A stretch of 64,000 bases of DNA, taken from Anaerolineaceae bacterium (GTDB taxonomy: Bacteria; Chloroflexota; Anaerolineae; Aggregatilineales; Phototrophicaceae). The stretch spans positions 248,001 to 312,000 of the forward strand of contig PABP01000021.1 of assembly GCA_002699585.1 (NCBI GenBank), written 5' to 3'. Numbering within the stretch: the first letter of the stretch is position 1; every line of letters begins with the position of its first letter. The translations under genes were made by a program, and so were the position numbers. Below, one piece after another: positions 13,891 to 50,828 of the stretch. The notes beneath the pieces were generated by a model, which was not told the origin of the DNA, did no database searches, and saw only the letters and a program-made list of their open reading frames with translations.

Positions 13891-15501
13891 CTAATCAGGA
13901 ATAGGCCGCCAGAACTGATAAGTAAAGCCATTCATGACGATGGCTTCCTGGGGTTTGTAGCGCTCAAGCACTGCTTCCAAAAACGGCGTTGGGAAGAAGC
14001 TTGCACGCAAGATGATGAGTGCGACTTCCTGGCTTTCAACCATATCGACCAGCGCCGTGCCATCCCAAATAGGGCGGTCATCGCTATTGTTGAGCGATAG
14101 GTTGCGCAGTTGAGTCGGGTTCGTGATGACAGGGCGACCTGCTGCCAGGACAAAACCAGCATCTTCGCTGATAACTAGCCCATCCGCTGCTTCAATCAAT
14201 GCGACGATTTGCTGCCCAGTAGTGATGTCTTCCTGTGTCGTAAAATGGCCAATATTAGCGTAACCAACCACATCATAGGTGGCACTGTCAAAATGCCGTC
14301 CGCGCACATTGGGTTCGATGTTCAATGCTGAAGCTATCGTTTCAAAACCAGGGCCGATTGTTGGCATCTTCAATGTACTGATGCCGTAAATGACAAAAAT
14401 GACTGGCACAACGACGATGGCGCTGCCTTGTGCGGCTTTCCATAGAGGTCGGATAACGCCGCCGAACTGCCGCGCATAAAAGCTTTGGGGTAGCACAGCT
14501 GTAGAGTTAAAAAGTGCACTCATGCCGATGCCTGCTGTGATGCACATGGCCACGATGCTGGTCGCGTAGTAGCTGTCACCTGCTCCCCAAGTTCCTGCGC
14601 CCAAAGCGCCCAATACTGTCGCGCCAACCAACCACACGCTGTATAACGACAATCGCCCGACAAACAGCTCGTATACGGCGAATAGCATCGCAGGCACAAT
14701 CAGCGCAAAATGTAGCCTTAGCCACAGTTTGACCAGGCCAAATGCTTGCAGCGGATCAAACTGATTGATATTGGCCAGGATGGCTTGTCGCCACCACTCA
14801 CCATTCGTGGCAATATTCAGCCCGACGAAAATTGACGCGCCAGCCGTTGCAAAGGCAAGCCCCCATAGGATGGCACGTATCGGATTCCTCAGGAATAGCC
14901 ATGCCAGTACTGCCAGTGCCGTGACTGCAGCGAGTTGCTTGGTATAGCCTGCGAGAATCAGCAGGAAGAATCCCAAAGCAATCTGGCCTATTTGTCGTCG
15001 TGGAACGGCTCGTACCAGGATGAGCACGGCAGCCGTTTCAAACAAGACCATCGTCAGGTGCTGCCGGAACAGTGGCCCATTGTGGTAAATCATATTCGAG
15101 GCCAAATAGGCTAGTCCGCTTAATAGTGCGATCCAGGGCCGTTTGCCATCACGATACACAGCATAAGCAATCAGCACGGCCGTAACAATCGTGCTGATGA
15201 AACTCAGCAATCGGCCTGTCCAGTATTGGGGCCCAAAGATAGCTACTAGCGGGGCAGGTAAAATATGAAACAGGGGCGGATAGTTGCTACTATAAAACGG
15301 ATAGACATCCGTGTTCTGGTACGGCCATTTAAGCTGGCTGAACAGAATCGTATCGACCAGTTCGAAGCCCTCGCCCTGGTCATAGTCAAATGGGAATTGG
15401 AACAGATTGAGCGCATAGGCAATATAAACGACCAGCGCGAAAAGCAGTATGACCGTTGCAACGCCCATCAATGCGGTATAGATCGTGCGTTTCGCTACCA
15501 T
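13891..15501 (-). CDS. Polytopic membrane protein, GT39/ArnT-like glycosyltransferase candidate
   Basis: A 536-residue protein with about eleven membrane helices in its first 390 residues and a soluble C-terminal part of about 145 residues. The first extracytoplasmic loop holds D-Y-D-Q-G-E-G-F-E, the acidic motif where GT-C enzymes of the PMT/ArnT type keep their catalytic Asp or Glu, followed by Y-P-F-Y-S-S-N-Y-P-P. This suggests transfer of a sugar from a polyprenyl-phosphate donor outside the membrane; the substrate is unknown. Its ATG shares one base with the stop codon of the small membrane gene before it (TGATG), so the two are translationally coupled. It differs in sequence from the GT87-like protein at 2587. 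Confidence 0.6.
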   Translation of the reverse strand: MVAKRTIYTALMGVATVILLFALVVYIAYALNLFQFPFDYDQGEGFELVDTILFSQLKWPYQNTDVYPFYSSNYPPLFHILPAPLVAIFGPQYWTGRLLSFISTIVTAVLIAYAVYRDGKRPWIALLSGLAYLASNMIYHNGPLFRQHLTMVLFETAAVLILVRAVPRRQIGQIALGFFLLILAGYTKQLAAVTALAVLAWLFLRNPIRAILWGLAFATAGASIFVGLNIATNGEWWRQAILANINQFDPLQAFGLVKLWLRLHFALIVPAMLFAVYELFVGRLSLYSVWLVGATVLGALGAGTWGAGDSYYATSIVAMCITAGIGMSALFNSTAVLPQSFYARQFGGVIRPLWKAAQGSAIVVVPVIFVIYGISTLKMPTIGPGFETIASALNIEPNVRGRHFDSATYDVVGYANIGHFTTQEDITTGQQIVALIEAADGLVISEDAGFVLAAGRPVITNPTQLRNLSLNNSDDRPIWDGTALVDMVESQEVALIILRASFFPTPFLEAVLERYKPQEAIVMNGFTYQFWRPIPD

Positions 15502-15764
15502 CAGGCAGGCTTATCTCCCAGCGGAATGAGTAAAGCTCCGACAACAGCGACCATCGCTAGAATACCCAGGGCGGCTTGTTGGGCAGGGCCAATGCCGCCT
15601 TCACGGCCAAAATCAACCAGATCAATGGCCAGGATGCCGACAAACCCCACCACGCCGATGAGCAACAGGACGATGCCCAATTGTCGCTTGCTGACCGTAA
15701 AATTCCCACTGAAGAATTGGCTGATGTCCGTTGTTTCTTGTGGATCGCGTTCTTCTGACATGGC
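15501..15764 (-). CDS. Small two-helix membrane protein, unknown function
   Basis: An 87-residue protein: about 35 polar residues (MSEERDPQETT...), then two membrane helices separated by a short loop (D-F-G-R-E-G-G-I-G-P). The start at 15764 is preferred over an upstream in-frame ATG at 15854 because GATGGGG precedes it and the extra N-terminal residues look non-coding. It is coupled to the following glycosyltransferase-like gene by a TGATG overlap, so a role as its membrane partner is plausible but not shown. No family recognised. Confidence 0.6.
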   Translation of the reverse strand, partial: AMSEERDPQETTDISQFFSGNFTVSKRQLGIVLLLIGVVGFVGILAIDLVDFGREGGIGPAQQAALGILAMVAVVGALLIPLGDKPA

Positions 15765-15936
15765 CCCATCTTTCCTTATCTGGTCTACTGTCGATTCTAC
15801 CTGTAGTTGGTCCTGCTTTTGAATGTCGAAATTGGGCCATATACATTTGTGCATGTCGCAAGTGTATCTCTTGGCATAATTACCATTTATGATACCGTTC
15901 GCCCATGTTATGCTTGCACGATGATTTCCAAGTATC

Positions 15937-18620: not shown

Positions 18621-19014
18621 AATATCTCCCTCTCTCGATGTAAGCCAACAACCATAGACGTGGATATGCCGATTATGGCTGCTCGGAGATGGAGTAATCT
18701 ACCGTCAAATCTGATAAAAGTCAGGCAATACTTGTGCTTTACGCGGCACGCAAGCTCTGATATAAAAGAGGGGCCTGCGATGTTCGTGATGGCGCGCTAC
18801 ATTTTGGGCCAACACTCACAAAATAGGGATTCGGGTCTGGTATCTTTGGTGATAGGCCAGTGCCAAGACCAAGCAACACAGCAGGATCCCACCCTGCACA
18901 GCAGGTCTCAAAATTGACCGTCACACGGCAAAGCAGGTCGTCATTATGGCGGCGGACACTAGTCCGCCGCTTTGACGTTTAGGGGTAGGAGGTGATGAAT
19001 TACGAGATGATAGG
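18621..19014. other. Intergenic region without a recognised gene
   Basis: Nearly 400 bases between two leftward genes. Open frames across it (for example 18456-18917 plus) have no ribosome site and unusual composition. It contains a perfect GC-rich hairpin at 18949-18970 (GCGGCGGAC-ACTA-GTCCGCCGC) followed on the plus strand by TTTGACG. The aquaporin promoter should lie at its left end, but no clear boxes were found. Confidence 0.5.
18949..18973. repeat. GC-rich perfect inverted repeat
   Basis: Nine paired bases with a 4-base loop, 42 bases downstream of the stop of the LCP gene (which reads leftward). On that strand no T-run follows, so it would be a Rho-independent terminator only if weakly tailed; it may instead protect the mRNA 3' end. 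Confidence 0.4.
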
Positions 19015-28587: not shown

Positions 28588-28904
28588 AGTTAACAATTTC
28601 ATCTTCCAAAAGTGTTGATCTGGAAGAGTACAGATTGTGGCGATGTTCAGAGAGCTGCCCATTTTGCTGTGAGGGTAGTACAGACGCGCATCTGGAATGG
28701 GCCAGGGAGCTGCAAAGGCGAACGTCATGTGCGACCCGCATATGCAAAATAGCCTGCGCCGGTAAGCGTTCCGTTATCAAAACGCAGGGTATCGGCCTCA
28801 GTGCCCGTACCTGATGAGTGGCGACTGCATGCGAATGTAGCGCAATCAAGGTGGTACCGCGGGAGTTCTTCTCGTCCTTGGATGGATGCGATGGACTCTT
28901 TTTT
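28588..28904 (+). promoter_or_regulatory. T-box riboswitch, specifier UGG (tRNA-Trp)
   Basis: The leader has the full T-box architecture. Stem I: lower helix CTGG (28620-28623)/CCAG (28702-28705); specifier internal loop AAGAGTA (28624-28630) facing GAATGGG (28695-28701); upper helix CAGAT (28631-28635)/ATCTG (28690-28694); distal AGAGAGCTG region near 28649. The specifier triplet after GAA is TGG (28698-28700), the Trp codon. The conserved T-box AAGGTGGTACCGCGG spans 28848-28862, with TGGT (28852-28855) able to pair with the uncharged tRNA acceptor end, and a competing terminator follows. Uncharged tRNA-Trp should stabilise the antiterminator and switch on trpE through trpA, including trpS. 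Confidence 0.92.
28863..28904 (+). terminator. T-box terminator hairpin of the trp operon
   Basis: GAGTTC (28863-28868) pairs with GGACTC (28893-28898) with one wobble, and CGTCC pairs with GGATG inside, followed by TTTTTT (28899-28904). Its left side shares sequence with the T-box antiterminator, giving mutually exclusive folds. Confidence 0.8.
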
Positions 28905-39028: not shown

Positions 39029-39835
39029 ATGACGGCACCAACGCGCACTTTTGGCTTAGAAGCCATCTCACAAATGTTCCAGCAGGCGGAAACTGAAAAC
39101 CGTGCTGCCTTCTTGCCTTATTTCCCCATTGGCTACCCGGACTACGATGCGTCCATTGAAGCCATCGCTGCGATGGCTGACGCTGGGGTAGATGGGTTTG
39201 AAATTGGTATTTCCTTTAGTGACCCGCTGGCTGATGGTCCTGCAATCCAGGTTGCGACGCAGAAGGCGCTCGAAAATGGCACCACGGTCAGGACTTGCCT
39301 TCAGGCTGTCCGAGCGCTGCGCGAGCGGGGTATCACCCAGCCGATGCTGATGATGAGTTATGCCAACCCGCTGGTGGCCTATGGCACCGAGCAGTTTGTC
39401 CTGGACGCAAAGGCTGCTGGCGCTGATGGCCTGATTGTGCCGGATTTGCCCCCTGAAGAAGCTGGATACTTCGCCGATGTCTGTGCCCGTGAGCACATGG
39501 CGTTGGTGTTCTTCCTGGCGCCGACCAGCAATGATGCCCGCATTAAGCTGGCTGCGGAAAAAGCCACCGGGTTTATCTATGTTGTTTCACTCACAGGTAT
39601 CACGGGCGAACGCCGCGACTTGTCTACCGATCTCTCACAGATCATGGCCAATATTCGCCGCCTGACGGACACGCCGCTTGTTCTCGGGTTTGGCATCAGC
39701 ACACCGGAACATGCACGTATGATGAATGGCCTCGTCAATGGCTTCATTGTGGGTAGTGCGTTGGTCCGCGCAGCCAATCAGGGAACGGACGCCGTCAGTA
39801 AACTGGCCCAGGATCTGCGAAACAGCCTGGATTAA
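39029..39835 (+). CDS. trpA: Tryptophan synthase alpha chain
   Basis: A 268-residue barrel enzyme splitting indole-3-glycerol phosphate into indole and glyceraldehyde 3-phosphate. The catalytic Glu is in G-F-E-I-G-I-S-F-S-D-P-L-A-D-G-P, which also contains the catalytic Asp; Y-V-V-S-L-T-G-I-T-G and L-G-F-G-I-S-T bind the phosphate. ATG 39029 with GAAGGA upstream is preferred over earlier TTG/GTG codons. Last gene of the trp operon; no terminator precedes the next promoter at 39920. Confidence 0.97.
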   Translation: MTAPTRTFGLEAISQMFQQAETENRAAFLPYFPIGYPDYDASIEAIAAMADAGVDGFEIGISFSDPLADGPAIQVATQKALENGTTVRTCLQAVRALRERGITQPMLMMSYANPLVAYGTEQFVLDAKAAGADGLIVPDLPPEEAGYFADVCAREHMALVFFLAPTSNDARIKLAAEKATGFIYVVSLTGITGERRDLSTDLSQIMANIRRLTDTPLVLGFGISTPEHARMMNGLVNGFIVGSALVRAANQGTDAVSKLAQDLRNSLD

Positions 39836-39919
39836 GGCTGATGACTGGTTTTTCTTGTGCTATTTATCCAATATAACGTGGTCAATATTATTAAGATTGG
39901 ATTTTATGGACACAATTTG

Positions 39920-39948
39920 TTGACATCATCCGGCAGACCCGCTATGCT
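39920..39948 (+). promoter_or_regulatory. Promoter of the aro operon
   Basis: A perfect TTGACA (39920-39925), exactly 17 bases, then TATGCT (39943-39948). Predicted start near 39955, which puts a leader peptide and terminator in the 5' leader of aroH. Confidence 0.8.
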
Positions 39949-39981
39949 CTGCGCTATAAATCAAGACATTTGGTCAATTCA

Positions 39982-40047
39982 ATGAACAACGTCAGCGCCA
40001 ACACCTATTATTACTTTGGTAACCACATAGTGGAGGGTGGGGCGTAA
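39982..40047 (+). CDS. Leader peptide with Tyr-Tyr-Tyr-Phe (attenuation of the aro operon)
   Basis: A 21-codon ORF just after the promoter. Codons 9-12 are TAT TAT TAC TTT, giving N-T-Y-Y-Y-F-G-N; the stop TAA is at 40045-40047. Four consecutive aromatic codons in so short a peptide, followed 35 bases later by a perfect intrinsic terminator ahead of aromatic pathway genes, is the pattern of classical ribosome-mediated attenuation (as in pheA and trp leaders). When charged tRNA-Tyr or tRNA-Phe is scarce, a ribosome stalled at 40006-40017 should favour antitermination. The ribosome binding site is weak; an in-frame TTG at 39970 is an alternative start. Confidence 0.7.
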   Translation: MNNVSANTYYYFGNHIVEGGA

Positions 40048-40082
40048 GCGCGCGTTTAGTCAGTGTTGACTTGGTGATTTGA

Positions 40083-40110
40083 GGCGTAGGGCGACCCCTA
40101 CGCCTTTTTT
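40083..40110 (+). terminator. Attenuator terminator of the aro operon
   Basis: GGCGTAGGG (40083-40091) pairs perfectly with CCCTACGCC (40096-40104) around CGAC, followed by six T. The segment GGCGTA at 40041-40046, overlapping the leader peptide stop, copies the left arm and can pair with TACGCC (40099-40104), giving an alternative antiterminator. Confidence 0.85.
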
Positions 40111-40165
40111 ATTTTCCATCATTTGCGATGGATGTGAAGATGGATATGAAGAAGGAGCATAGCGA

Positions 40166-40531
40166 ATGCTAGTACGAGGGGCACGAGGTGCCATTACCGT
40201 ATCAGAGGATACTGAAGACGCGATCTTAGTTGCCACCGAGGAAGTTTTACGGGCAATGATCGAAGCCAATGATATTCGTGAAGAGATGGTCGCCAGTGCG
40301 CTGTTCACGACAACCCCTGACCTGACGTCGTGCTACCCGGCCAAGGCCGCCCGTCTCATTGGATGGACCAATACGGCTCTGCTCGGCTTTCAGGAGATTC
40401 AGGTGCCAACGGGCCTCAAAATGTGCATTCGGGTCCTCATTCATTGGAACACTGACCTGGCCATGTCTGAAGTCGAACACATCTATTTGCGCGGCGCCCA
40501 GGTTCTCAGGCCAGATTGGAAGAAAGTTTAG
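40166..40531 (+). CDS. aroH: Chorismate mutase, AroH class
   Basis: A 121-residue enzyme matching the Bacillus AroH fold and length. It rearranges chorismate to prephenate, the entry to Phe and Tyr. Key residues are visible: R-G-A-R-G-A at the start, S-A-L-F-T-T-T-P-D-L, P-A-K-A-A-R, G-L-K-M-C-I-R-V-L-I and H-I-Y-L-R-G-A. GAAGGAG precedes ATG 40166. As the first gene behind a Tyr/Phe-rich leader peptide, its regulation matches its product. No prephenate dehydratase or dehydrogenase follows in the window. Confidence 0.95.
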   Translation: MLVRGARGAITVSEDTEDAILVATEEVLRAMIEANDIREEMVASALFTTTPDLTSCYPAKAARLIGWTNTALLGFQEIQVPTGLKMCIRVLIHWNTDLAMSEVEHIYLRGAQVLRPDWKKV

Positions 40532-40631: not shown

Positions 40632-41648
40632 ATGATCGTCGTAATGGAGTACAACGCAACAGCGAAGCAAATATCGGATGTCATCGCACGCATAGAGCAA
40701 GATGGCTACAAAGCGCACCTGTCACAGGGTAAAGAACGCACTATTATCGGCCTGGTAGGCGATAGCCCCACACCCAAGCGCGAAGAAAACTACAGTGTGA
40801 TGCCCGGTGTAGATAGGGCAGTCCGTATTTCGGAACCGTACAAGCTGGCAAACCGATCGTTCCACCCTGAAGGGACGCTCGTGCCACTCAATGGCTCGCA
40901 GATGGGAGGCAACAAAGTCCTTGTGATTGCAGGTCCTTGTTCGGTTGAAAGTCGCGAACAAATCATTGAGACAGCGTGTGCCGTCAAAGAAGCTGGGGCG
41001 ACGGCTCTGCGCGGTGGCGCGTACAAGCCACGCACGTCACCCTACAGCTTCCAGGGACATGGTGAACAGGGCTTGAAGTGGATGGCCGAAGCGCGCGAGA
41101 TCACAGGTCTACCCATCGTGACTGAGGTTATGGATCACAATCTGGTTCCGATTGTTTGCGAATACGCTGATGTGCTCCAGATTGGTGCGCGTAATATGCA
41201 AAACTTCACTCTGCTGAACGCTGTCGGCGAAAGCCAGCACACAGTTTTGCTCAAGCGGGGTATGTCCAGCACTGTCAAAGATCTACTCATGGCTGCTGAG
41301 TACGTTCTCTCACATGGCAATACGCGCGTGATGCTCTGCGAACGCGGCATCCGCACCTTTGAAACAGAGACGCGCAACACAGCCGACATCAACGCCATCC
41401 CGGCCCTTAAGCGTCTGACGCATCTCCCCGTTGTCTTTGATCCGAGCCATGCGACCGGTAAATGGGAATACGTCGAGTCCGTCGCATTAGCGGGTATTGC
41501 TGCGGGTGCTGATGGCCTGATTGTGGAAGTCCATCCAGAGCCGGACAAAGCGATGAGTGACGGTCGCCAGAGCCTGAAACCGGATGTCTTCAAGACAATG
41601 ATGGAGCGTGTTGCTCGCGTTGCTGAAGCCGTTGGGCGGGAGGCTTAA
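40632..41648 (+). CDS. aroF: 3-deoxy-7-phosphoheptulonate (DAHP) synthase, type I-beta
   Basis: A 338-residue enzyme joining PEP and erythrose 4-phosphate, first step of the shikimate pathway. Residues 1-70 form the ferredoxin-like regulatory domain ([13 protein letters not shown]) of the Thermotoga-type I-beta enzymes, which gives feedback inhibition by Tyr or Phe. The barrel follows with [38 protein letters not shown] and D-P-S-H-A-T-G. Located 100 bases after aroH and 3 bases before aroA. Gene symbol follows common usage for this type. Confidence 0.95.
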
Positions 41649-41651
41649 CCG

Positions 41652-42959
41652 ATGGATCCACACGAAACGCTCACCCTTAAACCAGGCATGCCCCTGCGTG
41701 GCATCACTCGCGTACCCGGCGACAAGTCCATCTCGCATCGCTCGATCTTGCTCGGTGCATTGGGTGATGGCGCCACACAAGTGCGTGGTTGGCTGGCCGC
41801 AGGTGATACCGAAGCGACTTTGGCGGCGGTTCAGCAACTTGGCATCCAGATTGACCGCCACGACACGCATACCCTGACCGTGCATGGTGGGCAACTCCGC
41901 CCCGCTGATGCTCCTCTAGATTTCGTCAATGCAGGTACAGGCATTCGCTTGGCAGCAGGCATCATGGCGGGGCAAAAATTCGATTCGGTGCTGGATGGTA
42001 GCTACCAACTGCGCCGCCGTCCGATGAAGCGCATCACTGAACCACTGCAAGACATGGGCGCGGACATCTCATCAGAAGAGGGTAAATGCCCCTTGTCTGT
42101 TCGGCCTGCCCAGCTTAAAGGTATAGAACACAATCTGAAAATTGCGAGCGCCCAGGTCAAGAGCGCCATTTTGTTGGCAGGGCTATTCGCGGATGGCGAT
42201 ACCGTCGTGGTGCAGCCCGGCCCTGCCCGTGACCATACCGAGCGCATGTTGGCCTCTATGGGCGCACAAGTCACGGTCGATGGCAACACCGTTACACTTA
42301 CTCCCGGTGCCACCCTCCAACCAATGGATTTGACTGTGCCTGGGGATTTCTCCTCAGCGGCATTCTTGATGGTCGCTGGCTTGCTGGTCCCTGATAGTGA
42401 TCTGACGATCCAGGGCGTCAACCTGAATGACACGCGCACCGGGCTGGTCGATGCCTTGCTGGCAATGGGCGCTGATATTGACGTTGTTGAAACAGGCCTG
42501 GAAGCGGGCGAACCCGTTGGCGACATCCGCGTGCGCTACTGTGAACTGCACGGCACGACCATTGGCGGCGATCTGGTCGTCCGTATGATTGATGAGTTCC
42601 CAATTCTCATGGTCGCAGCCCTGAGTGCTTCCGGTGAAACGATTGTCCGTGATGCGAAGGAACTGCGCGTCAAAGAAACCGACCGTATCGCGGTTATGGC
42701 GACGGAACTACGCAAACTCGGTGCCAACATAGAAGAGCGTGAGGATGGCTTCCGCATTGTCGGGCCGCAGACGCTTATGGGGTCGGTTGTGGATGGTCAT
42801 GATGACCATCGTATCGCCATGAGCATGGCCGTTGCCGGGTTGGTCGCTGATGAAATGACCGTCGTAACCGATGCCAAATGTGCTAATGATTCCTTCCCTG
42901 GCTTCGCTGAAACGCTCATGGAACTGGGCGGTGGACTGCTGCCTGAAGGTCAAGGATAA
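41652..42959 (+). CDS. aroA: 3-phosphoshikimate 1-carboxyvinyltransferase (EPSP synthase)
   Basis: A 435-residue enzyme transferring enolpyruvyl from PEP to shikimate 3-phosphate. Shows P-G-D-K-S-I-S-H-R, F-V-N-A-G-T-G-I-R-L, S-Y-Q-L-R-R-R-P-M, A-S-A-Q-V-K-S-A-I-L-L-A-G-L, K-E-T-D-R-I and D-D-H-R-I-A-M-S. The N-A-G-T-G loop differs from the N-A-G-T-A of many class I enzymes, which may affect inhibitor binding; the class was not determined. Second-last Glu-rich tail (L-L-P-E-G-Q-G). 3 bases after aroF. Confidence 0.96.
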   Translation: MDPHETLTLKPGMPLRGITRVPGDKSISHRSILLGALGDGATQVRGWLAAGDTEATLAAVQQLGIQIDRHDTHTLTVHGGQLRPADAPLDFVNAGTGIRLAAGIMAGQKFDSVLDGSYQLRRRPMKRITEPLQDMGADISSEEGKCPLSVRPAQLKGIEHNLKIASAQVKSAILLAGLFADGDTVVVQPGPARDHTERMLASMGAQVTVDGNTVTLTPGATLQPMDLTVPGDFSSAAFLMVAGLLVPDSDLTIQGVNLNDTRTGLVDALLAMGADIDVVETGLEAGEPVGDIRVRYCELHGTTIGGDLVVRMIDEFPILMVAALSASGETIVRDAKELRVKETDRIAVMATELRKLGANIEEREDGFRIVGPQTLMGSVVDGHDDHRIAMSMAVAGLVADEMTVVTDAKCANDSFPGFAETLMELGGGLLPEGQG

Positions 42960-42995: not shown

Positions 42996-43316
42996 ATGGA
43001 ACTGCTGATATTTGCCATATGCTTGCTGGGCTGGTTGGGAATGGCCTATCTCGTCTACCAGAAACGAAGCCTCTTTCGTTGGGGATTCTTCATTCTCGTG
43101 AGTGTCTGGCTTTATATTAGCATCGTTCTGGTGATCTTCACCCTGAGTCCTCCTTTACCTGTTTTGCTGATTGTTGGCCTGATTCCGGTCTTTGGCGTGG
43201 CGTATGGCTATCGCCTCTACGATCATTACAGCACCCGTGAGAAGGAAAAGAACACAAAAGCCAAGCGTTCAGATTTACAGAGTCCAGATGCACAACAGGA
43301 AGCGATAGAATCATGA
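42996..43316 (+). CDS. Small membrane protein of the aro operon, unknown function
   Basis: A 106-residue protein with three closely spaced membrane helices in its first 75 residues (L-L-I-F-A-I-C-L-L-G-W-L-G; F-R-W-G-F-F-I-L-V-S-V-W-L; L-P-V-L-L-I-V-G-L-I-P-V-F-G) and a charged C-terminal tail (R-E-K-E-K-N-T-K-A-K-R). No family recognised. It overlaps aroE by four bases (ATGA), so it is translated with the operon. A transporter subunit or an operon-linked anchor are both possible; nothing in the sequence decides. Confidence 0.65.
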   Translation: MELLIFAICLLGWLGMAYLVYQKRSLFRWGFFILVSVWLYISIVLVIFTLSPPLPVLLIVGLIPVFGVAYGYRLYDHYSTREKEKNTKAKRSDLQSPDAQQEAIES

Positions 43317-44149
43317 ATCGTGTAGGTGTCGTGGGTTGGCCGATTGAGCACAGCCTTAGCCCGGTGATGCATAATGCGGCGTTCCAGGCGTTGGGTATGG
43401 ATGATTGGGTTTATGATGCGATGGCTGTCCCATCGGATATTCCACGCCACGCTGTGATTGAACCTAAGCGGCATGGGTATATCGGCCTTAATGTCACCGT
43501 ACCGTTCAAACAAGCAGTCATGACCTACGTGCGCCCGGATGATAAAGCACGCGCTATCGGAGCGGTGAATACTATCATCTATGGTGATGACATCGGCACC
43601 AATACCGATGTCGATGGCATCATTGATGACCTGCTGGCCCATGATGTTGCCTTAGAAGGTGAGCGCGTCATTGTTTTAGGGGCGGGAGGCGCTGCCAGGG
43701 CAGCCGTTTATGGCCTGTGGCAGCAAGATGCGGAAGTCGTGGTTGTTAATCGGACGTTGTCTCGTGCCCAGGATATGCTCATGCAGTTGACTATGACTGC
43801 TGGCATCCAGAACGTGCAAGCGGTTACGCTCGATGAAGCTGTCGAACAGGGTCCATCCCTCATCGTGAATTGTACCTCGGCGGGCCTCTGGCCTGATGTT
43901 GATACATCACCCTGGGTCGATGGCATTGCGCTGCCACAGGGCATCACAGTCTATGACATGGTATATCGTCCCGCACAGACCAAACTGATGCAGCAGGTTG
44001 AGCAAGCGGGTGGGCGCGCGATTGGTGGCCTCGGTATGTTGGTCCGCCAGGGCGCGGCATCGTTCAAGCTGTGGACAGGCGTGGAACCGCCTGTGGATGT
44101 GATGTACCAAGCTGCCGAAGAAGCCCTAGCCGCGCGTCAGAACAAATAA
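43313..44149 (+). CDS. aroE: Shikimate dehydrogenase (NADP)
   Basis: A 278-residue enzyme reducing 3-dehydroshikimate. Substrate motifs S-L-S-P-V-M-H-N-A and L-N-V-T-V-P-F-K (catalytic Lys), then N-T-D-V-D-G-I, the nucleotide loop L-G-A-G-G-A-A-R-A, the N-R-T motif typical of NADP preference, and G-L-G-M-L-V-R-Q-G at the C-terminus. Overlaps the preceding membrane gene by four bases. Confidence 0.96.
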   Translation: MNRVGVVGWPIEHSLSPVMHNAAFQALGMDDWVYDAMAVPSDIPRHAVIEPKRHGYIGLNVTVPFKQAVMTYVRPDDKARAIGAVNTIIYGDDIGTNTDVDGIIDDLLAHDVALEGERVIVLGAGGAARAAVYGLWQQDAEVVVVNRTLSRAQDMLMQLTMTAGIQNVQAVTLDEAVEQGPSLIVNCTSAGLWPDVDTSPWVDGIALPQGITVYDMVYRPAQTKLMQQVEQAGGRAIGGLGMLVRQGAASFKLWTGVEPPVDVMYQAAEEALAARQNK

Positions 44150-44204: not shown

Positions 44205-45383
44205 ATGCCCATACGATTTTTGACAGCGGGTGAGAGTCATGGCCCGATGCTGACGACGATTTTAGAAGGGCTACCGGCTGGCTTGCCTTTCGACATGGAA
44301 GACATCAATCGCGATCTGGCGCGTCGCCAAAAAGGCTACGGCAGTGGTGGGCGCATGCAGATCGAAAAAGACAAGGTACGCGTCACAGGTGGCGTCATGA
44401 ATGGTCTGACGACCGGCGGCCCCATTTCGTTGATTGTCGAGAATCGTGATTTCAAGAACTGGAAAGAGCGCGATATCACCCCAATCACCACGCCTCGCCC
44501 TGGCCATGCCGACCTAACAGGCGCACAAAAATATGGCTATCGCGAACTGCGCCTTTCTTTGGAACGGGCCAGCGCGAGAGAAACGACCATGCGCGTGGCG
44601 GTGGGTGCCATCTGCAAGCGCTTTTTAGCCGAATTTGGCATCCAGATCGTGGGGTATGTTAGCCAAATTGGGGACGTCATCGCTGATTTAGAGGGTTCGG
44701 TGGATTATCTCCAACTTTACGAACAAGCTGAAACCAACGACGTCCGCTGCCCGGACCCACAAGCAGCTGAGGCTATGCATGCGGCTATTCGCCAGGTAAA
44801 AATTGATAAAGACACCCTTGGTGGTGTATTTGAAGTCATTGCGCTCAATGTACCGCCCGGGTTAGGCACCCACGTCCATTTTGATCGCAAACTGGATGCG
44901 CGCCTGATTGGTGCGATGGTCAGCATCCAGGCCATGAAAGGCGCTGAAATCGGCCATGCCTTTGCCAATGCAGGCAAACCCGGTAGCCAGGTGCATGATG
45001 ACATTGAAGTCGATGCCAACGGCAACCTCACGCGCCGTAGCAATCGCGCTGGGGGCCTGGAAGGGGGTATCACGACGGGCGAGCCGATTGTGGTTCGTGT
45101 GGCGATGAAACCGATTGCGACTATGCTGCGTGGTGCGGATTCGGTTAATTTGGCGACAGGTGAGCCGGATCGTACTGTGTATGAGCGCAGCGACTTTTGC
45201 GCCTTGCCACGGGCTGTCCCGGTGGGTGAATCCATGATGGCGTATGTATTGGCCGATGCTTTGCTAGAAAAACTTGGTGGGGATAGCATCGAAGAGATGA
45301 AGCCTCGCTTCAAGTCTTTGCGTGGCAATAACGTCGCTGATGTGCCGATGGATAATGTGGAGTGGCGTTTTGGCTACGAATAA
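44205..45383 (+). CDS. aroC: Chorismate synthase
   Basis: A 392-residue FMN-dependent enzyme making chorismate from EPSP. Shows T-A-G-E-S-H-G-P at the N-terminus, R-R-Q-K-G-Y-G-S-G-G-R-M, the R-P-G-H-A-D segment, R-A-S-A-R-E-T, S-N-R-A-G-G-L-E-G-G-I-T-T-G and R-S-D-F-C-A-L-P-R-A. Monofunctional; no flavin reductase domain. Its 3' end overlaps aroK. Confidence 0.97.
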   Translation: MPIRFLTAGESHGPMLTTILEGLPAGLPFDMEDINRDLARRQKGYGSGGRMQIEKDKVRVTGGVMNGLTTGGPISLIVENRDFKNWKERDITPITTPRPGHADLTGAQKYGYRELRLSLERASARETTMRVAVGAICKRFLAEFGIQIVGYVSQIGDVIADLEGSVDYLQLYEQAETNDVRCPDPQAAEAMHAAIRQVKIDKDTLGGVFEVIALNVPPGLGTHVHFDRKLDARLIGAMVSIQAMKGAEIGHAFANAGKPGSQVHDDIEVDANGNLTRRSNRAGGLEGGITTGEPIVVRVAMKPIATMLRGADSVNLATGEPDRTVYERSDFCALPRAVPVGESMMAYVLADALLEKLGGDSIEEMKPRFKSLRGNNVADVPMDNVEWRFGYE

Positions 45384-45879
45384 AGCAGATCGCCATATCG
45401 TGATTACTGGCTTTATGGGCACGGGCAAAACCACGATTGGGCGCCTCGTTGCCAGACAGGTGAAGCGTAATTTTGTTGATATGGACGACCTGATTGTTGA
45501 ACGCGCAGGTAAACCCATTCCAGCCATTTTTGCAGAGGATGGCGAAATCGCTTTTCGGATGATGGAGCGCAATATTCTTGAAGAGATTGCACGAACTGGT
45601 GGGCAGGTGATCGCGACCGGCGGTGGCGCACTTGTCGCCGATATTAATCGCCAGTTGATGAAGCAAAGTACGTTCTTGGTCTGCCTGACAGCAACACCGG
45701 ATATTATTGAGGCACGTATTGGGCAGGATACAGGCCGTCCTTTGGCACGCAACTGGCAAGATTTGCTCATCAAACGTGCGCCCGCCTATGCCGATATTCC
45801 CATACAAGTTGATACATCGCATCGTCAGCCTAATCAGGTGGCGGAGGAGATTGTGCGTTTATGGCAGTCCTCAATGTAA
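45370..45879 (+). CDS. aroK: Shikimate kinase
   Basis: About 169 residues. P-loop kinase phosphorylating shikimate with ATP: Walker A G-F-M-G-T-G-K-T-T, shikimate-binding D-M-D-D-L-I and R-M-M-E-R, Walker-B-like A-T-G-G-G-A, lid arginines in D-T-G-R-P-L-A. The start is uncertain. No good ATG exists near the P-loop; TTG 45370 with GGAG seven bases upstream gives the normal N-terminus (L-A-T-N-K-A-D-R-H-I-V-I-T-G). ATG 45355 is the alternative. Overlaps aroC by 14 bases and aroB by 19. Confidence 0.92.
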   Translation: MATNKADRHIVITGFMGTGKTTIGRLVARQVKRNFVDMDDLIVERAGKPIPAIFAEDGEIAFRMMERNILEEIARTGGQVIATGGGALVADINRQLMKQSTFLVCLTATPDIIEARIGQDTGRPLARNWQDLLIKRAPAYADIPIQVDTSHRQPNQVAEEIVRLWQSSM

Positions 45880-46907
45880 ATGCGCCAGGTGGCGCTTATG
45901 ACATCCTCTTAGAAAAGGGCCTCTTAAAAAAACTGGCCAATAACCCGGCGAGCTATGGCCTCGATGGACATGTCCTGGTCGTGACCAATACGACCGTTGC
46001 GCCACTGTACGGCCAATCAGTCGTGGATGCCTTACCTAATGCCGATCTCATCGTCATGAAGGACGGTGAAGCCTACAAAAACCTGGATACTATTTCTGAC
46101 TTCTATGATGCCTTCATCGCCGCTGGTGCAGACCGCCACTCGACGGTACTGGCATTGGGGGGTGGTGTCGTGGGGGATGCGGCTGGTTTTGCTGCTGCGA
46201 CCTATATGCGCGGTATTCCCCTCGTGCAGATGCCCACCACGCTGCTCTCAATGGTGGATTCCAGTGTGGGTGGCAAAGTCGGCGTCGACTTACCCCAGGG
46301 GAAAAACCTCGTTGGGGCATTCAAGCAACCCGACCGCGTGCTGATCGACCCCGATGTGCTGGGTTCTTTGCCGCCGGAGCAGTGGCGTTGTGGCATGGCC
46401 GAGGCGCTTAAACACGGTTTGCTTGCCGATCCTGAACTGCTCAACCCCGACTTGCATACGCCCGACCGTGCTGCGGCTTTTGTCGAACGGGCGGTGCAGG
46501 TCAAAATCAACGTTGTTGAGGAAGACCCTTATGAAAAGGGCATTCGGGCTTTTCTCAATCTGGGCCATACGTTTGCTCATGCATTCGAGCAGGTATCACA
46601 CTATGCTTGGCTGCACGGCGAGGCCGTTGGTGCTGGCTTACTGGCGGCAGCTAAATTGTCAAATCGACTGAGTATGTGTGACAGTGCCCTGGTTGACGAA
46701 ATCGACACAATCCTGGCTGAAACGGGCTTGCCTCGTAGCATCGGCCAACTAGACCCACACGCAATATATGAAGCGATGAAAACGGACAAAAAGTGGCGTG
46801 GTGGGCGCTCTCGCTTTGTGCTGCTCAAGGGCATGCAGCAGCCTGAGCTTGTCTATGAAGTTGCTGAAGAGGACGTCATTGCAGTGCTCGAAGCATTAGG
46901 TAGTTAA
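45861..46907 (+). CDS. aroB: 3-dehydroquinate synthase
   Basis: A 348-residue NAD- and metal-dependent enzyme converting DAHP to 3-dehydroquinate. Contains G-G-G-V-V-G-D-A-A-G-F-A-A-A-T-Y-M-R-G, P-T-T-L-L-S-M-V-D-S-S-V-G-G-K, the metal Glu in G-M-A-E-A-L-K-H-G, and the metal His in L-N-L-G-H-T-F-A-H-A and L-H-G-E-A-V. GGAGGAG lies 11 bases before ATG 45861, inside aroK. Last gene of the aro operon as seen. Confidence 0.97.
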   Translation: MAVLNVNAPGGAYDILLEKGLLKKLANNPASYGLDGHVLVVTNTTVAPLYGQSVVDALPNADLIVMKDGEAYKNLDTISDFYDAFIAAGADRHSTVLALGGGVVGDAAGFAAATYMRGIPLVQMPTTLLSMVDSSVGGKVGVDLPQGKNLVGAFKQPDRVLIDPDVLGSLPPEQWRCGMAEALKHGLLADPELLNPDLHTPDRAAAFVERAVQVKINVVEEDPYEKGIRAFLNLGHTFAHAFEQVSHYAWLHGEAVGAGLLAAAKLSNRLSMCDSALVDEIDTILAETGLPRSIGQLDPHAIYEAMKTDKKWRGGRSRFVLLKGMQQPELVYEVAEEDVIAVLEALGS

Positions 46908-49371: not shown

Positions 49372-50775
49372 CTAACTGGCTAGAACGAGATCATGGATGT
49401 AGGCTAGCGCGTCGACCCCATCTGCCGGGTTGAGGACAATGGATAGACTACATCCTGATGGCCCCTGAGCGACACCCAAGATATTCATGCCTTGTAGCGA
49501 TTCAAAGATACGCGCGATGATCTCATTGTGCTTATCCAGATTGCGGCCAATTGCTGTGATGATATGCACTGGCGAAACCGTCCAGTCCTGATCTTGGACT
49601 GTCTCTAGGGCTTCGTATACCATCTGGCTGAGGGCATTACTGGTTTCGATGCCACTCGTGGTTGGAATGACGAAACAAATCTGCGTGTGTGATGAAGACT
49701 GAGATACCAGCATGGTGTCCATCTGGCTGCCGCTCGCCTGGTAAAGCGCCTCATGGACGCGCTCAATCAGATCATGTACAGGGCCGCTCCGATACGCTGT
49801 AATCACAAAACCTTGAATGTTCGTGACGGCTTTAAGCGTGTGCTGCTCGTCATCAATGTTGCTGTGGATAATCGTCCCTGGATGCTGGGGCTTGTAAACG
49901 TTCTTGATGCGTAGGGCGATGTTGTTCTCTTGCAAGGGCTTAATCATCCGTGCATGCAGGATGCGCGCACCGAAGTAGGCTAACTCGGCAACTTCAGAAT
50001 ACGATAGCTCCTCAATGATCTTCGCGCTGTTGACCTGTCGCGGATCAGTGGACATCATGCCATCCACATCGGACCATATCCAAACTTCATCAGCATGAAT
50101 GCACTGGCTGATGATTGACGCCGTATAGTCACTACCGCCACGCCCGATGGTTGTGGGGTTGCCTGTCTGTGTAGCGCCAATATAGCCTGTCACAACCGGA
50201 ACAATCTGCCGGGAGAGCATGGGTGCGAGATTCTGCTCGATCCGGTTCTTGGTTTCATCGAGTATCGGGTTAGCGTTGCCGAAGGCGTCATCGGTTACGA
50301 TAATATCCGAGCCATCAATAGCAACACTGCGGACCTCATTATGGCGCAGCATGGCGGCGATAATCCGTGCCGAGAGCCTTTCCCCAACACCGGCGACCGC
50401 ATCGCTAATTTGGGGTAGTAACTTCTCACTGGGAGTGTTGGCGACCTGCTGACAAATATCGAGCATCTCAAATAGCAGACGATCAATATCTGCTTGCAAG
50501 GCCGTACTCTCTAAATTCCCCAGTGGGAGTAGCTCTACCAGCGCCAAATGGCGTGTACGGATAGTCGCTGCAATCCGTCGATAGCCGCGTGCGCTGCCAA
50601 TCTGTGCCAGTTGTGCGGCTTCTAGCATCATGTCGGTGATGCCATCTAATGCAGAAGCGACGACGATCAAGTTGTCCCAGCGCTTTTCCTCATGCAGGAT
50701 AATACTCAACACCTGCGCAAGTGCCGCCGCTGTGCCGACAGTCGAACCGCCGAATTTCATTACCAGAGTGCCCAT
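49372..50775 (-). CDS. lysC: Aspartokinase
   Basis: A 467-residue monofunctional aspartate kinase, first step to lysine, threonine and methionine. Catalytic N-terminal part: V-M-K-F-G-G-S-T-V, I-G-R-G-G-S-D-Y-T-A-S, W-S-D-V-D-G-M-M-S-T-D-P-R. Two C-terminal ACT domains (about 320-467: V-T-N-I-Q-G-F-V-I-T and I-T-A-I-G-R-N-L-D) for feedback by lysine or threonine. The upstream in-frame ATG (50805) is less likely; 50775 has GAGG five bases before it. A promoter with an SOS-like box lies upstream. Confidence 0.95.
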   Translation of the reverse strand: MGTLVMKFGGSTVGTAAALAQVLSIILHEEKRWDNLIVVASALDGITDMMLEAAQLAQIGSARGYRRIAATIRTRHLALVELLPLGNLESTALQADIDRLLFEMLDICQQVANTPSEKLLPQISDAVAGVGERLSARIIAAMLRHNEVRSVAIDGSDIIVTDDAFGNANPILDETKNRIEQNLAPMLSRQIVPVVTGYIGATQTGNPTTIGRGGSDYTASIISQCIHADEVWIWSDVDGMMSTDPRQVNSAKIIEELSYSEVAELAYFGARILHARMIKPLQENNIALRIKNVYKPQHPGTIIHSNIDDEQHTLKAVTNIQGFVITAYRSGPVHDLIERVHEALYQASGSQMDTMLVSQSSSHTQICFVIPTTSGIETSNALSQMVYEALETVQDQDWTVSPVHIITAIGRNLDKHNEIIARIFESLQGMNILGVAQGPSGCSLSIVLNPADGVDALAYIHDLVLAS

Positions 50776-50828
50776 GTGTGCCTCATTGCTGGTGGGTAAT
50801 GCCATCTAATTAGAGCATATGCTTGTGC

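Follow-up and report, generated by a model that had tools for sequence, protein, structure and literature searches.

A probable leader-peptide attenuator with aromatic codons ahead of the shikimate operon in Chloroflexota

A short leader open reading frame (ORF) with a run of Tyr and Phe codons, set between a promoter and a hairpin followed by a U-tract, precedes aroH in the window (the whole 64,000-nucleotide stretch analyzed here, from contig PABP01000021.1 of an Anaerolineaceae bacterium). We conclude that this element is very probably a ribosome-mediated transcription attenuator of the classical trp/phe type, placed ahead of genes that, by their Pfam matches to chorismate mutase, DAHP synthase, and shikimate enzymes, make the amino acids that would be sensed. 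Inspection of 93 Chloroflexota aroH loci showed an aromatic leader, as part of the same unit of promoter, ORF, U-tract hairpin, and aroH, in 71. An earlier reading of the sequence alone (the sequence-only reading) had proposed attenuation by aromatic amino acids at this site, and the proposal is now supported by recurrence of the leader in relatives, selection on its codons, covariation of two helices, and an average dependence of the predicted fold on ribosome position.

The individual features which that reading had described in the window were all recovered (Table 1): the consensus promoter, the 21-codon ORF and its four aromatic codons (exact to the base), the perfect 9-bp hairpin with its six T residues, and a GGCGTA that overlaps the leader stop codon. 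In the hairpin, GGCGTAGGG (40083-40091) pairs with CCCTACGCC (40096-40104) around the loop CGAC, and the T residues follow at 40105-40110. The gene upstream of the leader, trpA (Trp_syntA), ends at 39835. The operon had likewise been read correctly as a shikimate operon headed by chorismate mutase (PF07736) and DAHP synthase (PF00793/PF18152). The weak ribosome site of the leader, which had been named as the main doubt, is real, with an anti-Shine-Dalgarno (anti-SD) energy of -2.2 kcal/mol compared to -8.5 kcal/mol for aroH. The window leader reaches only 4 aromatic codons in 8, a density attained by 12.4% of the shuffles of its group, so that the window alone is no proof; the proof comes from conservation.

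Table 1. Features of the aro leader region and of the operon downstream in the window
Feature	Coordinates	Strand	Details
Promoter TTGACA-N17-TATGCT	39920..39948	+	TTGACA 39920-39925, 17-base spacer, TATGCT 39943-39948
Leader ORF, 21 codons, MNNVSANTYYYFGNHIVEGGA	39982..40047	+	ATG 39982, TAA 40045-40047
Control codons TAT TAT TAC TTT (Tyr-Tyr-Tyr-Phe), codons 9-12	40006..40017	+	
Protector stem (1:2)	40023..40040	+	CCAC 40023-40026 with GTGG 40037-40040, shortly 3' of the control codons; covariation in 26 family sequences
GGCGTA, copy of terminator left arm	40041..40046	+	can pair with right arm TACGCC 40099-40104
Predicted antiterminator (2:3)	40050..40087	+	arms 40050-40062 and 40075-40087; would sequester part of the terminator left arm
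Intrinsic terminator (3:4)	40083..40110	+	9 bp without mismatch, 4-base loop, six T; family-wide covariation
aroH, chorismate mutase type I	40166..40531	+	PF07736, E 7.9e-42
DAHP synthase with ferredoxin-like domain	40632..41648	+	PF00793, PF18152
aroA, EPSP synthase	41652..42959	+	PF00275
Small ORF, 106 aa	42996..43316	+	no Pfam match
aroE, shikimate dehydrogenase	43313..44149	+	PF08501
aroC, chorismate synthase	44205..45383	+	PF01264
aroK, shikimate kinase	45322..45879	+	PF01202; true start may lie downstream
aroB, 3-dehydroquinate synthase	45861..46907	+	PF01761, PF24621

In the model that we propose, transcription would start just 3' of the -10 box, and a ribosome translating the leader ORF would follow RNA polymerase. 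With Tyr-tRNA or Phe-tRNA uncharged, this ribosome would stall on the run TAT TAT TAC TTT and cover the protector stem, leaving segment 2 free to trap the terminator arms, so that no terminator would form and aroH to aroB would be transcribed. With Tyr and Phe plentiful, the ribosome would instead reach the stop codon and cover segment 2, the terminator would form, and transcription would end before aroH. Escherichia coli trpL follows this four-segment logic, its stop codon lying where a ribosome that terminates there masks segment 2. Genes of aromatic biosynthesis would thus switch on only under a shortage of aromatic amino acids, here and in many relatives. Translation of the leader, stalling, termination, and the choice of the amino acid that would matter most are predictions made from the sequence.

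To place the window among its relatives, we identified aroH in 52 of 61 genomes (its own included) and in 234 of 400 Chloroflexota genomes, and we read 93 aroH loci: the 52 from the 61-genome set, 1 extra, and 40 of the 234 among the matches listed, with one to four per family. Leaders were present in 28 of 31 loci of the window's family, 21 of 21 from other families of the order, and 12 of 12 from other orders of the class. They also occurred in nine of nine loci of four further families (f30, f40, f65, and f68) and in 1 of 20 elsewhere (L076, kept though doubtful). Three leaders (L016, L017, and L029) were set by hand and 22 leaderless loci were excluded by hand; L074, where 4 codons in 8 are aromatic and the hairpin is poor, was left out as unconvincing. 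Examples are NAYPYFYFGNHIVESGALPRV from the nearest relative (G001, a genome matching Phototrophicus methaneseepsis), FYTYFFYFTSRKPDW from a genome matching Chloroflexus aurantiacus (G170), and SSYFYYFSCHIELSL from one matching Herpetosiphon aurantiacus (G162). The nearest relative falls in the same genus as the window's genome, in keeping with the Chloroflexota origin that the sequence-only reading had suspected. All three species are cultured, and the leader is therefore open to experiment.

Under a fixed rule that asked for a short ORF no more than 300 bases before aroH with 5 or more aromatic codons in 8, 54 of the 93 loci scored (21/31, 15/21, 9/12, 9/9, and 0/20 in the five groups above), compared to none of the 93 reverse strands and to 2.1%, 0.2%, 1.2%, 1.1%, and 0% of dinucleotide shuffles in the same groups. 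Six leaders begin beyond the 300-base limit and so escape the rule (L041, L043 to L045, L062, and L065). Comparison of the aroH upstream regions of relatives, which had been suggested as a check on the window, found the aromatic ORF and the hairpin conserved. Retention of the hairpin after loss of the aromatic codons or the ORF, which would have spoken against the proposal, was looked for and not seen among the 31 loci of the window's family; the 3 leaderless ones are also without such a hairpin before aroH.

In 65 of the 71 loci the leader was preceded, at a distance of up to 130 bases, by the motif TTGAC-N17..19-TANNNT, which occurred so placed in 0.4% of shuffles. A U-tract hairpin was found in 66 of the 71, its left arm 42 to 95 bases (median, 73.5) from the codon run, and 62 of these hairpins, the window's among them, scored at least 25. 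The scan placed the terminator badly in four loci (L016, L062, L079, and L080), which are included in the fold and duplex tests below. In family f30 (L066 to L069, of which L066 comes from a genome matching C. aurantiacus), the leader is kept with a strong hairpin and an interrupted U-tract (TTCTGTTGTTG and similar), and the scan found no terminator at the expected place in any of the four loci. Such loci would fit a leader peptide that acts on aroH by way of translation or Rho and not through an intrinsic terminator. We regard that mechanism as very unlikely for the element at large, because a good U-tract hairpin accompanies the leader in 62 of the 71 loci, including the window, where the 55 bases between the U-tract and the aroH start mean that the hairpin does not cover the aroH ribosome site.

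The leader codons are under selection for their meaning. Over whole leaders (1,991 codons), TTT and TTC together number 214 and TTA and TTG 35, while the two remaining frames of these stretches give TTY/TTR counts of 115/108 and 85/155 and aroH coding sequence gives 147/216. What is kept is therefore the meaning of the codon, and U-richness alone does not account for the counts. Counts in the densest 8-codon windows, which are biased by the choice of window, were 176 TTY, 2 TTR, 222 TAT or TAC, and 16 TGG. Tyr and Phe dominate the leaders, and Trp codons, which refine the Tyr/Phe specificity first proposed, occur in the codon run of 13 of the 71 (1/28, 5/21, 5/12, 2/9, and 0/1 by clade). In strength, the ribosome sites of the leaders fall between those of aroH and control positions: anti-SD energies at or below -4 kcal/mol were found for 32 leaders, 48 aroH genes, and 5 control positions, out of 71 each. 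Start codons were ATG in 41 leaders, GTG in 26, and TTG in 4. A chance origin of the leader was considered and is ruled out by the reverse-strand and shuffle controls together with codon choice.

RNA structure was examined in an alignment of 26 of the 28 family sequences with a leader (L016 and L052 were left out). The protector (four pairs) and the terminator covary, with double changes in 9 of 14 pairs compared to 4.1 in shuffles and in 29 cells compared to 10.7, and 88.5% of their cells are paired compared to at most 53.6% when the arms are slid. The number of pair types in these two helices was not above shuffles, 125 of 500 of which were as high. Segment 2 has the consensus GGGCGTTGC in the 26 sequences and can pair with the left terminator arm in 85.3% of cells (30 to 56% when slid) and with the right arm in 90.0% (18 to 79% when slid). 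Against its shuffle control neither pairing stands out, because the letters hardly vary. The sequence-only reading had paired GGCGTA with the right arm; that pairing is indeed conserved in the family, but the left-arm pairing is conserved too, and the data do not separate the two. Column 139 of the left arm is A in 23 of the 26 sequences, leaving the terminator pair unmade in 15 and remaining pairable with segment 2 in 22; its retention despite the broken terminator pair suggests that the alternative pairing constrains it. At loci of other clades (L063, L065, L079, L080, and L084) the segment sequences differ, and the logic appears similar by eye.

The equilibrium probability of the terminator was computed at 66 loci for the RNA left free by the ribosome. 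A ribosome on the last aromatic codon gave a mean of 0.61 and one at the stop codon a mean of 0.85, a gain of 0.242, compared to 0.019 for shuffled spacers (25 sets; range, -0.014 to 0.048). When the ribosome edge was moved in 6-base steps, in a scan that itself carried no shuffle control, the lowest values (0.63 and 0.61) came with the edge 6 and 12 bases past the codon run; values were 0.72 to 0.78 between -18 and 0 and also at +18, and 0.80 to 0.85 at 24 or more bases on either side. In the stalled state of 62 well-scored loci, the left arm was captured at 0.20 and the right arm at 0.19; neither arm was captured above 0.3 in 39 of them, so that the average effect rests on the other 23, about a third. 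The energy of the 2:3 duplex was only slightly better than shuffles over the 66 loci (mean z, -0.48; P < 0.05 in 5).

Alternative folds had also been proposed as a check, and the dependence on ribosome position that they display as an average over the 66 loci is weak in the window itself. There the terminator probability is 0.95 to 0.97 and dips, to 0.72 to 0.76, only when the first free base lies at +9 to +12; with the first free base at 40027, the predicted antiterminator folds at -13.6 kcal/mol. The nearest relative (L002 in G001) showed no dip, at 0.94 to 0.96 throughout. Since the window terminator stays favored at equilibrium, a switch there could only be kinetic. While the right arm is still unmade, the predicted sequestration of the left arm is 0.50 with the ribosome stalled compared to 0.10 with the ribosome at the stop codon; shuffled window spacers reach 0.50 in 9 of 25 cases, and the window 2:3 duplex energy was no better than shuffles (z = 0.04).

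A T-box (28606-28882, found by the T-box covariance model) precedes trpE in the window, and a lineage that uses T-boxes for aromatic genes might be expected to place one, or a metabolite riboswitch, before aroH as well, with the ORF as a chance feature. We give this explanation almost no chance of being right. The model that finds the trp T-box had no match in 39900-40200, where no Rfam leader family matched and no Rfam family of any kind reached its gathering score (five matches with E up to 10 were unrelated and far below cut-off), and the conserved element is a reading frame. A search of six related loci against Rfam gave two matches with E up to 1, both to unrelated sRNA families below cut-off and both at L097, described below. 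A leader-peptide attenuator for aro beside a T-box for trp would give this one window two different sensors of tRNA charging. Rfam also placed a 6S RNA in the window, at 18769-18943 (54.8 bits; cut-off, 46.4).

The three leaderless loci of the family (L010, L013, and L028) have aroH directly behind trpA, a gene recognized by eye. In one of these genomes (L193, G007:C33), a T-box, trpE to trpA, and aroH form one run without an aro leader; the run was seen in G007 only, the available stretch ending before trpE at the other two loci. It looks like the aro operon moved in one lineage from leader control to control by the trp T-box. The disappearance of the hairpin where aroH has merged behind trpA would also be expected if the hairpin served mainly as the end of the trp operon or as a fixed boundary terminator and the leader ORF were incidental; the trp operon lies immediately upstream in the window, and the hairpin would stop its read-through. 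Against this stands the presence, between trpA and the hairpin, of a promoter and an aromatic ORF that are conserved, together with the hairpin and similarly spaced, across other families and orders. A fixed terminator, moreover, would have no use for selection on codon meaning or for a fold that depends, on average, on where the ribosome stands, and we consider this function of the hairpin extremely unlikely compared to attenuation.

A covariance model of the aligned element was run on the 61 genomes, 54 of which had a match with E up to 10, and 19 matches away from known aroH genes were read. L097 (G000:C37:145590-145726, E 1.5e-10) is an aromatic leader (MNPQHTYCSYYFMNHIAHRGMLSHV) with a terminator before a second DAHP synthase of the window's own genome, and at L103 (G050, in which no AroH was found) a DAHP synthase immediately follows an aromatic leader. 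L104 and L105 appear to be aroH sites at the ends of contigs. Another six matches (L098 to L101, L109, and L112) are Thr/Met-rich leaders before aspartokinase-like genes, called by eye with one orthologue tested. A further six (L106, L107, L110, L111, L113, and L115) look like chance matches or plain terminators. Three more leaders, each noted by eye in one genome, carry YYY before tyrS (L102), seven Thr codons before thrS (L108), and, in MNIFACSCCCCDLKVGCPPRFSS, Cys codons before a cysteine synthase-like gene whose family scores fall below curated cut-offs (L114).

The window's own genome has a Thr/Met-rich leader (MNHFSSTTMTMTMMPTYIGYGEFDAA) with a terminator upstream of the aspartokinase at 14447-15865 of G000:C2, on the minus strand (L117/L162). 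We surveyed the best 30 of 49 genomes having the gene at E 1e-80, the window's own included and nearly all from its family. Leaders with at least 4 Thr or Met codons in 8 were present in 26 of the 30, compared to 3 of 30 on the reverse strand, and with at least 6 in 23 compared to none; all 26 have a U-tract hairpin 21 to 37 bases after the ORF. Because ATG codons may double as starts, sensing of Met by this leader is not certain. We met no Thr plus Met specificity for an aspartokinase leader in the accessible portions of the attenuation literature. The aspartokinase inside the window (49372-50805, minus strand; L120) showed no leader or terminator by eye or in the scan. In a scan of G000 and G001, no leader followed by a terminator turned up ahead of pheA, tyrA (in G000 only), PF00587 tRNA synthetases of three kinds, or six genes with PF00682. 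Near 4707703-4707915 of G001:C1, on the minus strand (L135), a hisS-like gene is preceded by a U-tract hairpin and a short ORF (MIIEYGFGHHFSHL) that contains three His codons; this may be a His leader or chance.

We think it likely that several classes of Chloroflexota share leader-peptide attenuation as a general and ancient tier of amino acid control, with Tyr and Phe (and in places Trp) codons for the shikimate operon and the second DAHP synthase, Thr and Met codons for aspartokinase, and, in one genome each, Tyr codons for tyrS, Thr codons for thrS, and Cys codons for the cysteine synthase-like gene. The aro leader would then have been lost in one lineage on annexation of the operon to the T-box-controlled trp operon. 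In the accessible portions of published surveys, amino acid leader attenuators are placed in the Proteobacteria, Actinobacteria, and some Firmicutes (PMC2965389, PMC1262725, and PMC9413887). Naville and Gautheret (2010) described leader peptides as known only from Proteobacteria and Actinobacteria before adding Firmicutes (PMC2965389, accessible portion), and a gamma-proteobacterial origin has been suggested (PMC3766115, likewise in part). A leader set that many Chloroflexota families share, and whose sequences and targets are its own, speaks for an origin that was wider or repeated. A search of open-access literature (most subscription journals lay outside this scope) gave no description of aro genes in Chloroflexota being controlled by leader-peptide attenuation. 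Lopatovskaya (2010) is said to survey attenuation across bacteria and may list Chloroflexota cases.

The sequence-only reading had taken its precedents from the proteobacteria; a case before a DAHP synthase operon is already known outside them. The nearest published match that we found is the short aromatic leader AroR of Corynebacterium glutamicum, which encodes Phe-Tyr-Phe before the aroF (DAHP synthase) operon (Neshat 2014, as given in the accessible part of PMC11802643); according to the same source, stalling of the ribosome raises transcription in response to Phe and not to Tyr. The likeness is one of function only, with AroR taken from that partial description: the phylum is another, the codon run here is dominated by Tyr and Phe with Trp codons in some clades, and the operon here combines chorismate mutase and DAHP synthase with the shikimate enzymes. 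The E. coli leaders of pheA (pheL) and pheST share control codons in a leader and attenuation by charged tRNA, but they respond to Phe only and act on chorismate mutase-prephenate dehydratase and Phe-tRNA synthetase (PMC11802643, in part). The trpL-trpEDCBA system of E. coli shares attenuation by a leader and uses Trp codons, whereas trp in the window's genome has a T-box (PMC11802643 for E. coli, in part); trp T-boxes are known from Dehalococcoides, another member of the Chloroflexota (PMC2494555, accessible portion). Like the aro leader, the trpE T-box of the window would sense tRNA charging, in its case probably that of tRNA-Trp, and control transcription termination; unlike it, the T-box binds the tRNA directly, needs no translation, and serves a separate operon. 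The window's genome thus presents a paired case, a T-box for trp and a probable leader peptide for aro.
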